Below are positions 16,389 through 21,921 of a stretch of 33,083 bases of DNA, piece by piece; within the stretch, counting starts at the first letter, position 1, and each line of letters opens with the position of its first letter. Origin of the DNA: a virus; the IMG/VR virus record IMGVR_UViG_3300017768_000036, positions 1 to 33,083 of that record; one strand, written 5' to 3'. The position numbers and the translations under genes were made by a program. The notes below the pieces were generated by a model. The model saw nothing but the letters and a program-made list of their open reading frames with translations. It searched no databases and was not told the DNA's origin.

Positions 16389-16434
16389 TTGAAAAAGGGT
16401 TAGTAAAAGTGCAGGGAAACACTGATAAAATATT

Positions 16435-16533
16435 CCTTCGCCACCCTCAGGCGGAGGTATGAGAGACTCGTTTAGGCACCCTATAGGTCTCGGTTTGCGG
16501 AGTGCACATAGAAAAGGTGAGGATTCCCTCACC
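16435..16533 (-). promoter_or_regulatory. Structured psbA 5' leader RNA
   Basis: The ~150-nt leader holds three stems on the minus strand: GGTGAGG-GAAT-CCTCACC (16516-16533), GAGAC ... GTCTC (about 16463-16491), and an 8-bp stem with one wobble closing a 7-nt loop (16435-16457). Structured psbA leaders named PhotoRC-I/II have been described in marine cyanobacteria and their phages; this is a candidate, but I cannot match the consensus by eye. It may control D1 mRNA stability or translation. Confidence 0.55.
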
Positions 16534-19116: not shown

Positions 19117-19162
19117 ATGAAGTACCTTTCTAATGGACCGTTAATGCCCCTGTGAAGGGCAA

Positions 19163-19235
19163 CGGGTCAGGCAGGATTTGAACCTGCGACCGACTGCTTA
19201 GAAGGCAGTTGCACTATCCGCTGTGCTACTGACCC
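19163..19235 (-). tRNA. tRNA-Arg (anticodon UCU)
   Basis: 73 nt on the minus strand. The acceptor stem GGGTCAG pairs with CTGACCC, with discriminator G. The anticodon loop CTTCTAA gives anticodon TCT (reads AGA/AGG), and the T arm has the standard GGTTCAAATCC. CCA is not encoded. AGA is frequent in this AT-leaning phage and rarer in a higher-GC Synechococcus host, so the tRNA would help translate phage genes. Its 5' end overlaps the stop codon of the upstream 52-aa gene. Confidence 0.95.
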
Positions 19236-19384
19236 AAAAGAATTTTGGAGGCAGTTTTGATATTCAGATTCAACTTTTCAGCGTCCTCTTCGTAACCTAA
19301 GTCAACGAGAGTATGCAACTTATCGATCTGGACGTCGAGGTAATCCTCTTCAACGTCAGCGTCTAGGAAATCAATCCAACTCAT
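19226..19384 (-). CDS. Small acidic protein (52 aa)
   Basis: 52 residues beginning MSWIDFLDADVEEDYLDVQI, helical and acidic, ending KTASKILLGQ. Its last codons and TAG stop are the first 10 nt of the tRNA-Arg gene, so tRNA 5' processing would cut this mRNA. It is the first gene after the promoter at 19411-19439, with GAGTTG weakly near the start. No family recognised. Confidence 0.6.
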   Translation of the reverse strand: MSWIDFLDADVEEDYLDVQIDKLHTLVDLGYEEDAEKLNLNIKTASKILLGQ

Positions 19385-20930: not shown

Positions 20931-20959
20931 ATTGTACAACAAAAGACCCTAGGTGTCAA
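20931..20959 (-). promoter_or_regulatory. talC promoter overlapping a terminator
   Basis: TTGACA (20959-20954), 17 nt, TACAAT (20936-20931) on the minus strand, about 24 nt before the talC ATG region leader. The -35 box is in the loop and top of the terminator stem at 20941-20971. Confidence 0.8.
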
Positions 20960-20971
20960 TACCCAGGGTCT
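20941..20971 (-). terminator. Intrinsic terminator of the riboswitch operon
   Basis: Minus strand: AGACCCTGGGT-ATTGAC-ACCTAGGGTCT, an 11-bp stem with one G-U pair, then TTTTG. It follows the stop of the 58-residue gene by about 22 nt. The T run is short, so some read-through into talC is likely. Confidence 0.75.
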
Positions 20972-20992: not shown

Positions 20993-21169
20993 CTATTTAA
21001 TCTTCCAGTTAGGTGATACGACAAATGGATTTAAAGTAACCCACTTGGCGTAGTGTATTCCACGGTAACATAACAGGGCAAAGACCTGTTCAGGGTCATG
21101 TATGTCTTCATCATATTCTGGAAGATTGTAATCCCAGTTACGGGAATCAAACTCCAGACTGATTTTCAT
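20993..21169 (-). CDS. Hypothetical protein (58 aa)
   Basis: 58 residues from the ATG at 21169 (MKISLEFDSRNWDYNLPEYD), preceded by GAGG; a start 14 codons earlier overlaps the 29-aa gene. Ends WVTLNPFVVSPNWKIK. No family recognised. It is the last gene of the riboswitch-led operon. Confidence 0.6.
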   Translation of the reverse strand: MKISLEFDSRNWDYNLPEYDEDIHDPEQVFALLCYRGIHYAKWVTLNPFVVSPNWKIK

Positions 21170-21173
21170 TGCC

Positions 21174-21263
21174 TCAGTGTCCTGTTCTAAACAGTAACTG
21201 AACCTCACCATAGATAAGTGCTAAGAAAACCACCATGGCGATACTAATTTGAAGTACTTCCAT
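21174..21263 (-). CDS. Very small one-TM peptide (29 aa)
   Basis: 29 residues, MEVLQISIAMVVFLALIYGE then VQLLFRTGH: one membrane helix. GAGG lies about 8 nt upstream, overlapping the stop of the DUF4278-like gene. Plausible as one of the many single-helix peptides in this window, but short. Confidence 0.45.
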   Translation of the reverse strand: MEVLQISIAMVVFLALIYGEVQLLFRTGH

Positions 21264-21273
21264 AGTTCTAACC

Positions 21274-21408
21274 TCACTTATAGTTTTTTACAAGTTTGAT
21301 GCCACGATACATAAGATCGTGATTTCTCTCTTGTGCTGCTTCTGCGAGTACTTTTGCCTTGTACTCATCTGGGTTGTAAGAAACCCCACGGTAAACGACT
21401 TTTGCCAT
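21274..21408 (-). CDS. DUF4278-like small protein (44 aa)
   Basis: 44 residues, MAKVVYRGVSYNPDEYKAK then a helix and a second MYRGIKLVKNY. The paired YRG motifs resemble DUF4278, a family of short cyanobacterial proteins with (L/V)xYRGxxY, function unknown. It has a strong AGGAG site and lies in the riboswitch operon. Possibly host-derived. Confidence 0.7.
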   Translation of the reverse strand: MAKVVYRGVSYNPDEYKAKVLAEAAQERNHDLMYRGIKLVKNYK

Positions 21409-21453
21409 TTGTTTTACTCCTAAAGTTAAGTGACTTGTTTAAGGTCCGTTCCT

Positions 21454-21639
21454 TTAGTCGTTTGCGTCCCAGTCGCACTTTAGTCCTAATACTGTTACCC
21501 AGTGTTCCCTATAAACTTCAATAATTTCCTGCTTTGCAACAGGATTAAGTTGTTCATGGTTCCTGACTCGATCCATCTTTGCAGATATTTCGGCACAGGT
21601 CATACTTGCTGCGAGTAGTAGTCCGTATAAGTGTATCAT
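21454..21639 (-). CDS. Riboswitch-controlled small exported or membrane peptide (61 aa)
   Basis: 61 residues. A hydrophobic N-terminus (MIHLYGLLLAASMTCAEISA) looks like a short signal peptide or lipoprotein-type leader with Cys at 15. A charged helix follows, with a second Cys near the end (LGLKCDWDAND). It is the first gene after the candidate glutamine-II riboswitch, exactly where the short 'downstream peptide' lies in that RNA family. It is not recognisably IF7 or IF17, the cyanobacterial glutamine synthetase inactivating factors. Ribosome site GGAG is 10 nt upstream. Function unknown. Confidence 0.7.
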   Translation of the reverse strand: MIHLYGLLLAASMTCAEISAKMDRVRNHEQLNPVAKQEIIEVYREHWVTVLGLKCDWDAND

Positions 21640-21649
21640 GAGATGAACG

Positions 21650-21698
21650 CTCCGTTCCGCGACCTACTTGCGTCACCCGAAGGTGATGAACGTAGATG
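21650..21698 (-). promoter_or_regulatory. Candidate glutamine-II (downstream-peptide) riboswitch
   Basis: Minus strand in order: CTAC, GTTCA, TCACC-TTCG-GGTGA, CGCAA, GTAGG. This gives a P1 stem CTAC/GTAG and an upper stem TCACC/GGTGA enclosing an internal loop (GTTCA opposite CGCAA), the arrangement and conserved letters of glnA/downstream-peptide RNAs. GAAC (21657-21654) next to the GGAG ribosome site (21653-21650) can pair with GTTC to form the pseudoknot. Glutamine binding would then hide the ribosome site of the 61-aa gene. Confidence 0.8.
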
Positions 21699-21736
21699 GT
21701 AGCAGCGGATACATAATGTATTCTTTGCTACATTTA

Positions 21737-21744
21737 TATTTATA
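21737..21744 (-). promoter_or_regulatory. Late promoter (TATAAATA) of the riboswitch operon
   Basis: A perfect TATAAATA lies on the minus strand about 40 nt upstream of the riboswitch, in the gap after the 45-aa gene. It puts the riboswitch and its small-gene operon under late control. No good TTGACA box is paired with it. Confidence 0.65.
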
Positions 21745-21783
21745 CCACAGTTTCCTGACATTTGTAGTTCACCCTGTTACATT

Positions 21784-21921
21784 TTAACACATTTTATTGT
21801 TTTCTTTATCATTTCTTAATGATTCCTTCCTTGCAGCAGTCCAGAGCATGTCTGTCACGTCTGGACCAATCTCATTTCCCTTATCTAAAAGGTCATCATA
21901 AACTGAATCCTGCGAAGGCAT
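21784..21921 (-). CDS. Small hypothetical protein (45 aa) after nrdB
   Basis: 45 residues from the ATG at 21921 (MPSQDSVYDDLLDKGNEIG), 26 nt inside the end of nrdB; starts further upstream would overlap nrdB more. Middle PDVTDMLWTAARKESL, basic end. It probably shares the nrd transcript. No family recognised. Confidence 0.55.
   Translation of the reverse strand: MPSQDSVYDDLLDKGNEIGPDVTDMLWTAARKESLRNDKENNKMC

Follow-up and report, generated by a model that had tools for sequence, protein, structure and literature searches.

A probable glutamine-I riboswitch variant of cyanophages with genes housed in its hairpin loops

In the IMG/VR virus record IMGVR_UViG_3300017768_000036, analysed here over its positions 1 to 33,083 (the window, 33,083 nucleotides), a minus-strand leader carries the letters of a glutamine-sensing RNA just ahead of an open reading frame (ORF) for a peptide of 61 amino acids. 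What kind of element is this, and what would it control in a phage? A sequence-only reading of the locus had taken it for a glutamine-II (downstream-peptide) riboswitch heading an operon of small peptides. Our analysis leads us to place it with the glutamine-I riboswitches, as a variant in which two junctions mirror each other and genes lie inside the loops; of this anatomy we are highly confident. Its proper extent is about 21692-21417 on the minus strand, the ribosome site of the next gene included. The surroundings of the element are 99.8% identical to cyanophage metaG-MbCM1 (501 bases compared).

The letters named by the sequence-only reading are all found on the minus strand, namely the late-promoter letters, CGTTCA, a UUCG-capped stem of five base pairs, CGCAAGTAGG, GAACG and the ATG. 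It had pointed to two Rfam models, and when the region 21400-21900 was compared by cmscan with all 4227 Rfam families both of them matched the leader: RF01739 (glutamine-I, glnA RNA) at 21692-21645 with 29.4 bits (expectation value, E, 2.2e-4) and RF01704 (glutamine-II) in the same region with 25.6 bits (E 2.8e-4). Neither reached its curated gathering score, which is 35 bits for RF01739 and 33 bits for RF01704. Since the window scores lie under these cut-offs, the Rfam scan of the window at gathering thresholds overlooked the aptamer, returning only a transfer RNA (tRNA) and a PhotoRC-II RNA and no glutamine RNA. A chance match of the aptamer letters is ruled out by the Rfam E-values, the conservation and the covariation.

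The letters at 21692-21645 are the 5' half of the element only. After GAACG comes a second CGTTCATC (21649-21642), and at the far end of the 61-amino-acid ORF lies a 3' half, GGGACGCAAACGACTAAAGGAACGG, at 21470-21446. A scan of IMG/VR for the pattern GTTCA ... CGCAAGTAGG gave at least many contigs, chance matches included, in which the letters run on as GAACGG-nn-CGTTCA-hairpin-CGCAAA-CCG/CGAC-..-GAAGGAACGG. Most of our loci come from pattern scans, each of which fixes part of the motif, and the counts given here hold among the matches listed and are not natural frequencies. The second half was found downstream in all 27 loci that had been picked by the first half alone. Conversely, the first half lies within 1400 nucleotides (strict regular expression) of 103 of the 117 sites picked by the second half alone, and four more sites are cut off; among the other ten, the first half is a variant in seven, with CAACG in six of them and TGCAAG in L206, L202 and L244 carry an insertion before the second CGTTC (CGTTC2), and L232 shows neither. 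Shuffled windows gave the core pattern in 2 of 2320 cases. The census used below comprises 178 elements, the window among them as L001, and was drawn from 216 second-half sites after removal of 21 duplicates and of 17 sites without a strict first half; some of the sites dropped are variant CAACG/CGTTG forms. The shuffle tests reported below take no account of relatedness.

In the window, the outer helix P1 has CGTTC1 (21688-21692, followed by A at 21687) as its 5' strand and GAACG2 (21447-21451) as its 3' strand. It is followed by the P2 hairpin UCACC-UUCG-GGUGA (21673-21686, arms 21686-21682 and 21677-21673) and by CGCAAGTA (21665-21672), the junction core with the 5' strand of loop E, which shares its start with CGCAAGTAGG (21663-21672). 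Helix P3 joins GGTCG (P3a, 21660-21664) to CGACU (P3b, 21456-21460), the final U of which is the first base of the UAA stop codon. Further in, GAACG1 (21653-21657) and CGTTC2 (21645-21649, followed by A at 21644) form the inner helix P1', whose loop of three nucleotides, the linker length in 152 of the 178 elements, holds most of GGAG (21650-21653), the candidate ribosome site of the 61-amino-acid ORF. The arms of P2' are UCUCA (21639-21643), reaching the A of the start codon, and UGGGA (21467-21471); CGCAAA (21461-21466) forms the second junction core, and CUAAAG (21452-21457) is the loop-E strand with the stop codon in it. P2, P2' and P3 covary among the relatives and P1' shows two-sided changes, as detailed below. 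All strands of the three-way junction (P1 CGUUC/GAACG, P2 and P3) are present in the window, the 3' part lying beyond the ORF, and loop E has its AGUA with AAA on the opposite strand. Model R1 aligned the first half of the window and, the insert being too long, put its 3' half in the wrong place.

Elements without an ORF, as in phage ACG-2014f (L280) and in many viral contigs, are compact, and for them we propose a fold in which the P3 helix of an outer glutamine-I aptamer bears at its end another three-way junction, pseudo-symmetric to the first. RF01739 covers the entire compact element above its cut-off in five of the ten loci scanned (L280 with 41.1, L143 with 46.7, L159 with 43.6, L251 with 41.7 and L187 with 40.3 bits), and in the remaining five (L009, L018, L064, L095 and L186) one half was matched, at 30.8-38.4 bits. 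The kinship with glutamine aptamers put forward by the sequence-only reading is therefore upheld, whereas its class gives way to glutamine-I, the closer one, whose model spans five whole relatives at 40.3-46.7 bits. The first half of the ORF-bearing L268 was matched by RF01739 with 34.9 bits and by RF01704 with 33.1 bits, and this is the only locus among those scanned to reach the RF01704 gathering score (33). For the isolated elements of L280, L251, L186 and L187 the nested topology is the minimum-energy fold given by RNAfold, in which at least four of the five P3 pairs form and three extra pairs lengthen the inner end; the remaining 14 of the 18 compact elements fold without a proper P3. Unguided RNAalifold on the 18 compact sequences recovered the outer P1 and P2 and the inner P1' and P2', and did not recover P3. 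When the structure is named beforehand, 97.4% of the cells of the compact set are paired against 84.2% in shuffles, and the covariation score is 0.337 against 0.095 (0/500), all slid versions scoring low. For P3, the test across all elements gave 116 paired cells out of 138 in 23 distinct strand pairs (shuffled mean 101.4, 0/2000), the weakest positions being the third and the sixth, with 15 and 9 of 23 paired. These comparisons support the view that the two halves belong together and that P2, P2', P3 and the inner helix would pair.

The genes inside the element keep fixed positions. Among the 178 elements the P2' loop is short in 48 and long in 130, and in 121 of the long loops an ORF ends at the same aptamer nucleotide, its stop codon (TGA in 77, TAA in 44) running into the loop-E strand; an ORF ends elsewhere in eight of the others and is missing from one. 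The start lies 4 nucleotides after GUUCA in 121 of the 129 P2' ORFs, and GGAG is found at most 18 nucleotides before the start in 119 of the 129. So it is in the window, where the ORF of the 61-amino-acid peptide (phrog_504, 21454-21639, with the ATG at 21639) starts 4 nucleotides past GUUCA at the top of the P2' stem and stops in the loop-E strand, its last codons and stop (...GACGCAAACGACTAA) being aptamer nucleotides. The commonest ORF ends are WDAND (90/121) and close variants of it, even in peptides of otherwise different types.

The loop of the first hairpin, P2, is short in 140 of the 178 elements, long in 32 and could not be placed in six. An ORF is present in 29 of the 32 long loops and ends near or in CGCAAGTAA (19 at -2, 6 at +9), and in phages S-TIM4, S-IOM18 and syn9 both loops hold ORFs. 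No ribosome-site-like motif was found within 18 nucleotides before the start of any of the 29 P2 ORFs, and a -10-like box lies within 22 nucleotides before GUUCA in 22 of these 29 elements; therefore the P2 ORFs may start almost leaderless.

Pairing of the stem across the ORF was evaluated for 120 of the 129 P2' ORFs and 23 of the 29 P2 ORFs, those with a start exactly 4 nucleotides after GUUCA. The first four P2' pairs are formed in 388 of 392 cells from 98 distinct arm pairs (shuffled mean 376.8, 0/5000), and the P2 pairs across the first ORF in 83 of 88 cells from 22 distinct cases (shuffled mean 70.4, 0/5000). The P2' arms change together, as TCCC-GGGA in 87 elements, TCCT-AGGA in 16, TCCT-GGGA in 11 and TCTC-GGGA in 7, with CCCC-GGGG and TCTA-TAGA in three each as the rarer forms; two are mismatched. 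In 85 of the 98 distinct P2' cases and in 17 of the 22 distinct P2 cases the stem is unbroken as far as the A of the start codon or beyond. At the same time the sequence between the arms supports the idea that the loop ORF evolves as a protein gene: in pairs of equal-length P2' ORFs (ORF2), with the first four and the last seven codons excluded, the differences at codon positions 1, 2 and 3 number 3161, 1623 and 4622 (229 non-independent pairs).

The loop ORFs fall into the phrog_504 type, a second family ending in DAND, and phrog_6471 in the P2 loop. By profile comparison the P2 peptides are related to the P2' peptides with a probability of 88.6% (E 2.7e-6), as are the two P2' families to each other with 96.5% (E 9e-10), the latter alignment including the common DAND end. 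The 61-amino-acid peptide has two conserved cysteines; its AlphaFold model, with a mean predicted local distance difference test (pLDDT) of 78.6, has helices at residues 5-8, 15-26 and 33-49, and a Foldseek comparison of the model with PDB gave nothing at E below 0.001. When the loop peptides were scanned, no Pfam family came out above cut-off, the only matches being weak ones with E 0.03-0.06. A tblastn search with the 61-amino-acid peptide found 79 phage records, and a protein search of IMG/VR four loci; judged by such searches, the peptide is less conserved than the RNA. A different insert occurs in phage RB11-B, where an ORF annotated as an HNH endonuclease lies between GAACG1 and CGTTC2, in the three-nucleotide loop of the inner helix (L283:1240-1812). 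The Pfam scan of this protein reported no family. Sequence matching the RB11-B insert, whole or in part, was seen by eye at the same place in L098, L219, L202 and L244.

Downstream of the element in the window comes a gene for a 44-amino-acid DUF4278-like protein (21274-21408), which matches phrog_5049 with E 2.7e-21 and Pfam DUF4278 (PF14105) with 24.9 bits, close to the cut-off of 25.3 (E 2.7e-5). The YRG motif is found in the called next gene of 131 of 140 elements; of the nine without it, three are cut off by the end of the locus, five are uncalled and one is mis-called. PMC6316151 gives DUF4278 genes as targets of cyanobacterial glutamine switches, turned on by glutamine, and has the DUF4278 domain cover the N terminus of IF17, an inactivating factor of glutamine synthetase; ON with glutamine is also given for host switches in PMC6698751. 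The sequence-only reading had placed a peptide as the first gene behind the switch, and a short peptide there is; it is, however, coded inside a hairpin loop of the switch, and the DUF4278-like gene would be the classical target.

How the element could act on this gene is suggested by the loop-E strand, CU(G/A)AAG, which is complementary to CUU(C/U)AG overlapping the next ribosome site. In the window the alternative partner of CUAAAG is CUUUAG, within CUUUAGGAG (21417-21425), which also holds the ribosome site of the DUF4278 gene. The two sides change in step, the partner of CUA/AUA strands being UUUAG in 53 of 53, that of the 90 CUG/UUG strands UUCAG in 62, UUUAG (G-U) in 26 and something else in 2, and that of CCA/CCG strands of other types in 29 of 31; among these other types CUUUGG pairs over seven base pairs and CUCAUUCUGG over three only. 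The ribosome site was placed in 174 of the 178 elements for this test, and over 44 distinct pairs the best-run pairing weight came to 13.36, with 12.05 for inter-sequence shuffles (0/300), which supports the view that the loop-E strand and the DUF4278 ribosome site retain the ability to pair.

On the mechanism that we propose, L-glutamine, the predicted ligand, would close the outer aptamer, and closure would hold the loop-E strand and uncover the DUF4278 ribosome site (ON, like the host switches); without glutamine the loop-E strand could mask that site. The closed aptamer would also tie up the start region of the loop ORF, and a ribosome on the loop ORF would open P2', P3 and the loop-E strand. 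Since the top of P2' holds the start of the ORF and loop E its stop, the peptide could not be made while the glutamine-bound fold stands, nor could that fold persist during translation; low glutamine would give the loop peptide and high glutamine the DUF4278 protein. The architecture is strongly supported; taken together with the ligand and the direction, which we infer, a glutamine-I cyanophage riboswitch with gene-housing loops and a glutamine-driven reciprocal mechanism seems to us probable, with considerable room for doubt. The fuller picture, of mirrored junctions sharing one helix, start and stop codons that are part of the aptamer, a two-output switch and perhaps two cooperating glutamine sites, is more tentative and in our judgement falls somewhat short of an even chance.

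Could the element instead be a glutamine-II switch, with a GUUC1:GAAC1 pseudoknot that controls only the 61-amino-acid peptide, the second half being a tandem copy in its own right? As GUUC and GAAC hardly vary, serial pairing (GUUC1:GAAC1 and GUUC2:GAAC2) is possible beside the nested pairs in most sequences; the RF01704 scores of the first halves of the window (25.6 bits) and of L268 (33.1 bits) lean the same way, and tandem glutamine switches are known (PMC9481103). The inner helix bears on the choice between the pairings. It reads GAACG/CGTTC in 176 of 187 rows, and in seven rows (L042, L164, L184, L211, L213, L224 and L237) CAACG replaces GAACG1 together with CGTTG for CGTTC2. The last four rows have CGTAA with an insertion after it (L219 and L283, the real CGTTC2 of L283 lying beyond the inserted ORF) or are apparently spurious (L178 and L056), and since these other departures are insertions or spurious rows, no intact element has a one-sided exchange of that G-C pair. 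The seven variants span at least two peptide families and three linker sequences; GAACG2 is unaltered in all of them, and CGTTC1 is readable in six and was not located in L213 (in L237 our script wrongly assigned GUUC1 to a CGTTG of the P2 loop). The joint change preserves the nested inner helix and, in the six with a readable CGTTC1, costs one pair in each serial helix, so that the GUUC1:GAAC1 pairing of the sequence-only reading yields to one of GAAC1 with the second GUUC. Moreover the window has no closing P2 3' strand after GAACG1, its P3a pairing with P3b past the ORF, and five compact elements are spanned by RF01739 as a single aptamer. Membership of RF01704 was rejected on the window score of 25.6 bits against 33, on the two-sided changes and on the lack of a P2 3' strand in cis, and we consider the whole alternative improbable.

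A real RNA element that does not sense glutamine would be another explanation, the loop ORF being an upstream ORF whose translation to the stop codon opens the DUF4278 ribosome site by coupling. The stop does lie within the strand able to mask the next ribosome site, which a terminating ribosome would cover, and the accessibility calculation given below, which failed to show opening, fits this equally well. Yet the 48 of 178 elements with a short, ORF-free P2' loop keep both halves, the core agrees in its letters with the glutamine-I model, the gene behind it is of the classical target family, and glutamine makes up only 2.6% of the loop peptides, so that we hold coupling alone to be unlikely. 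The same low glutamine content makes classical attenuation by glutamine codons unlikely, and a leader-peptide attenuator was rejected on this composition. The variety of the loop ORFs (phrog_504, the DAND family and phrog_6471) and the HNH-annotated ORF of RB11-B would also suit an element that is foremost a landing site for gene cassettes at the DNA level, like attC or homing sites, with any RNA function secondary. However, the strand-specific loop E, the covariation of the platform and a neighbour that is almost always of the DUF4278 type accord with an RNA, and start and stop codons at fixed aptamer positions go beyond the needs of a landing site; the peptide families, being related by profile comparison, may be duplicates rather than foreign cassettes. 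We regard this possibility as slight.

For the glutamine-I riboswitch with gene-housing loops, several observations have to be set on the other side. The outer helix P1 is invariant in the set of 18 compact elements (A1), so covariation cannot test it, and of the 23 distinct P3 pairs, 8 lack pairing at the third position (A-C, C-A or A-A) and 14 at the sixth. Where glutamine-I reads UGAAGG in loop E, the window reads UAAAGG, GAA being the commoner form in the relatives, and the folding energy of its 171-nucleotide leader is unremarkable (z -1.54, 16/200 shuffles equally good). The ORF-bearing L002, L284, L283 and L288 have no Rfam match at E up to 0.05, L184, L224 and L213 have none at E up to 0.5, and L042 is matched only by RF01704, at 21.7 bits. 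At the start-codon columns pairing is not clearly above shuffles (169/294 against 168.1 for P2', 56/66 against 56.0 for P2), in columns where AUG hardly varies and covariation is uninformative. The pairing of the loop-E strand with the flank of the ribosome site runs to only three base pairs in 16 of 174 elements. With the aptamer forced in RNAfold, the DUF4278 ribosome site does not open on average: its mean unpaired value is 0.39 free against 0.41 forced in ORF-bearing elements (n=114, a rise in 41) and 0.33 against 0.32 in compact ones (n=44, a rise in 11). The forced fold costs a median of 8.4 kcal/mol in ORF-bearing and 6.2 in compact elements, and 7.7 in the window, computed over 158 elements before ligand and non-canonical pairs. 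The ON direction thus received no support from this calculation, and RNAfold accessibility as a proof of an ON switch was set aside.

The element is found broadly in cyanophages. With E up to 10, the region from the aptamer to the start codon matched 428 phage records, 423 of them with names that begin with Synechococcus, Prochlorococcus, Cyanophage or Marine, and the second half matched 346 at the same limit; both halves were present in all 22 named phage records fetched, which were chosen for diversity and not randomly. Single, un-nested glutamine-I-like elements were seen on the viral contigs L015, L030, L034, L059, L065, L091 and L106, and in several un-nested elements a ribosome site GGAG(G)TTTCC is complementary, by eye, to GGAAA after the aptamer. 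Model R1 had one match in 151 host-family genomes, on a 189-kilobase contig of phage size in what is, going by its name, a single-cell genome (under stricter filters, by which divergent forms may be missed), and a host-encoded nested switch was rejected on this ground. In a collection of 84,980 species the exact pattern gave 14 stretches, seven of which show the element (L288, L290, L292, L294, L295, L299 and L300), with both halves in view in six and L294 cut by the locus end; none of the seven lies on a contig shown to be chromosomal, and the other seven stretches look like chance. Among the seven with the element are contigs filed under Dehalococcoidia, Rhodospirillaceae, Nonlabens and Euryarchaeota (L290, L292, L294, L295 and L299), apparently pieces of cyanophage DNA that binning or assembly has put into the wrong genome. 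In 41 host genomes, canonical glutamine-II elements were found in 28, and eight of these host loci read by eye have no nested half; RF01739 matches were found in 14 genomes, five of them over the cut-off, and among 15 RF01739-like host loci the nested-element pattern picked out the phage contig alone. Within the reach of these searches, the element would therefore be a phage form of a host control RNA.

The sequence-only reading had also placed the operon under a late promoter. In the window TATAAATA (21737-21744) is present, a T4-type late promoter motif. Among the 168 elements with enough upstream sequence, however, sigma-70-like -10 boxes are commoner, with 91 against 22 for the late motif, two elements having both and 53 neither. 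A palindromic -10-like box such as GGTCTATAATAGACC stands a few bases before GUUC1 in many elements (for example L283:1165-1182).

With glutamine-I (RF01739) the phage element shares CGUUCA, P2, the loop-E strand AAGUA, P3 and GAAGGAACG, its place before a DUF4278-type gene and a likely translational action. It differs in that another three-way junction, the mirror of the first, sits on top of P3, in that the P2' loops hold ORFs of about 49-66 amino acids with the aptamer halves up to about 150-200 nucleotides apart, and in its core, CGCA against the RF01739 consensus CGGA. Like glutamine-II (RF01704) it has the letters CGUUCA-hairpin-CGCA-GGAACGG with small ORFs nearby, and glutamine-II in hosts likewise precedes YRG-type (DUF4278-like) genes (eight host loci by eye); unlike glutamine-II, its inner GAAC pairs with the second GUUC and forms no pseudoknot with the first, there is no closing P2 in cis, and the ORF lies inside the element and not downstream. 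Group I introns are structured RNAs with ORFs in peripheral loops, sometimes for endonucleases. The phage element resembles them in that hairpin loops of a structured RNA carry genes, whereas no ribozyme or splicing is known for it and its RNA is a putative metabolite sensor. PMC9481103 describes 157 tandem glutamine-riboswitch doublets, which also have two aptamer-like units per leader; those of the phage element are nested, with a common P3, and not serial. Phage Melnitz, according to PMC9004378, has a glutamine switch with a transfer-messenger RNA (tmRNA) gene and so likewise a phage-borne glutamine aptamer, the passages on it reporting neither a nested ORF nor a double junction. That T4-like cyanophages have glutamine switches is already on record (PMC9602691, PMC9964418). 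In the full texts searched, nothing came up among the matches listed on genes nested in the switch, on a double junction or on a reciprocal action (subscription papers, preprints and supplements lay outside the search).

Beyond the DUF4278-like gene, the minus strand of the window holds a 29-amino-acid hydrophobic peptide (21174-21263), by eye likely one membrane helix, and a 58-amino-acid protein with a YRG motif (phrog_6192, 20993-21169, scanned as a 72-amino-acid ORF from 21211). With this motif the operon may hold a second DUF4278-like protein, a family that Pfam did not report there. A likely intrinsic terminator (AGACCCT ... AGGGTCTTTT, 20941-20971), recognized by eye and not flagged by the terminator scan, stands ahead of talC. 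Elsewhere in the window a tRNA-Arg (TCT) lies at 19162-19236 on the minus strand, and a PhotoRC-II RNA (62.7 bits) at 16422-16517, at the start of a 410-amino-acid ORF, which we take to be psbA, an ordinary cyanophage feature. In phage P-RSM6 (L268:1658-1843) a manA RNA with 188 bits is found just before a transaldolase gene, downstream of the nested element.

Riboswitches usually precede the genes that they control, and here genes lie inside the aptamer itself, at fixed positions and broadly in cyanomyoviruses. The element would be a natural split aptamer, and it is an RNA scaffold whose structure sets protein sequence, as in the DAND end of the loop peptides. With glutamine as the predicted ligand, it would give a concrete link, which we consider plausible, between the nitrogen state of the host and phage gene expression in abundant marine viruses.

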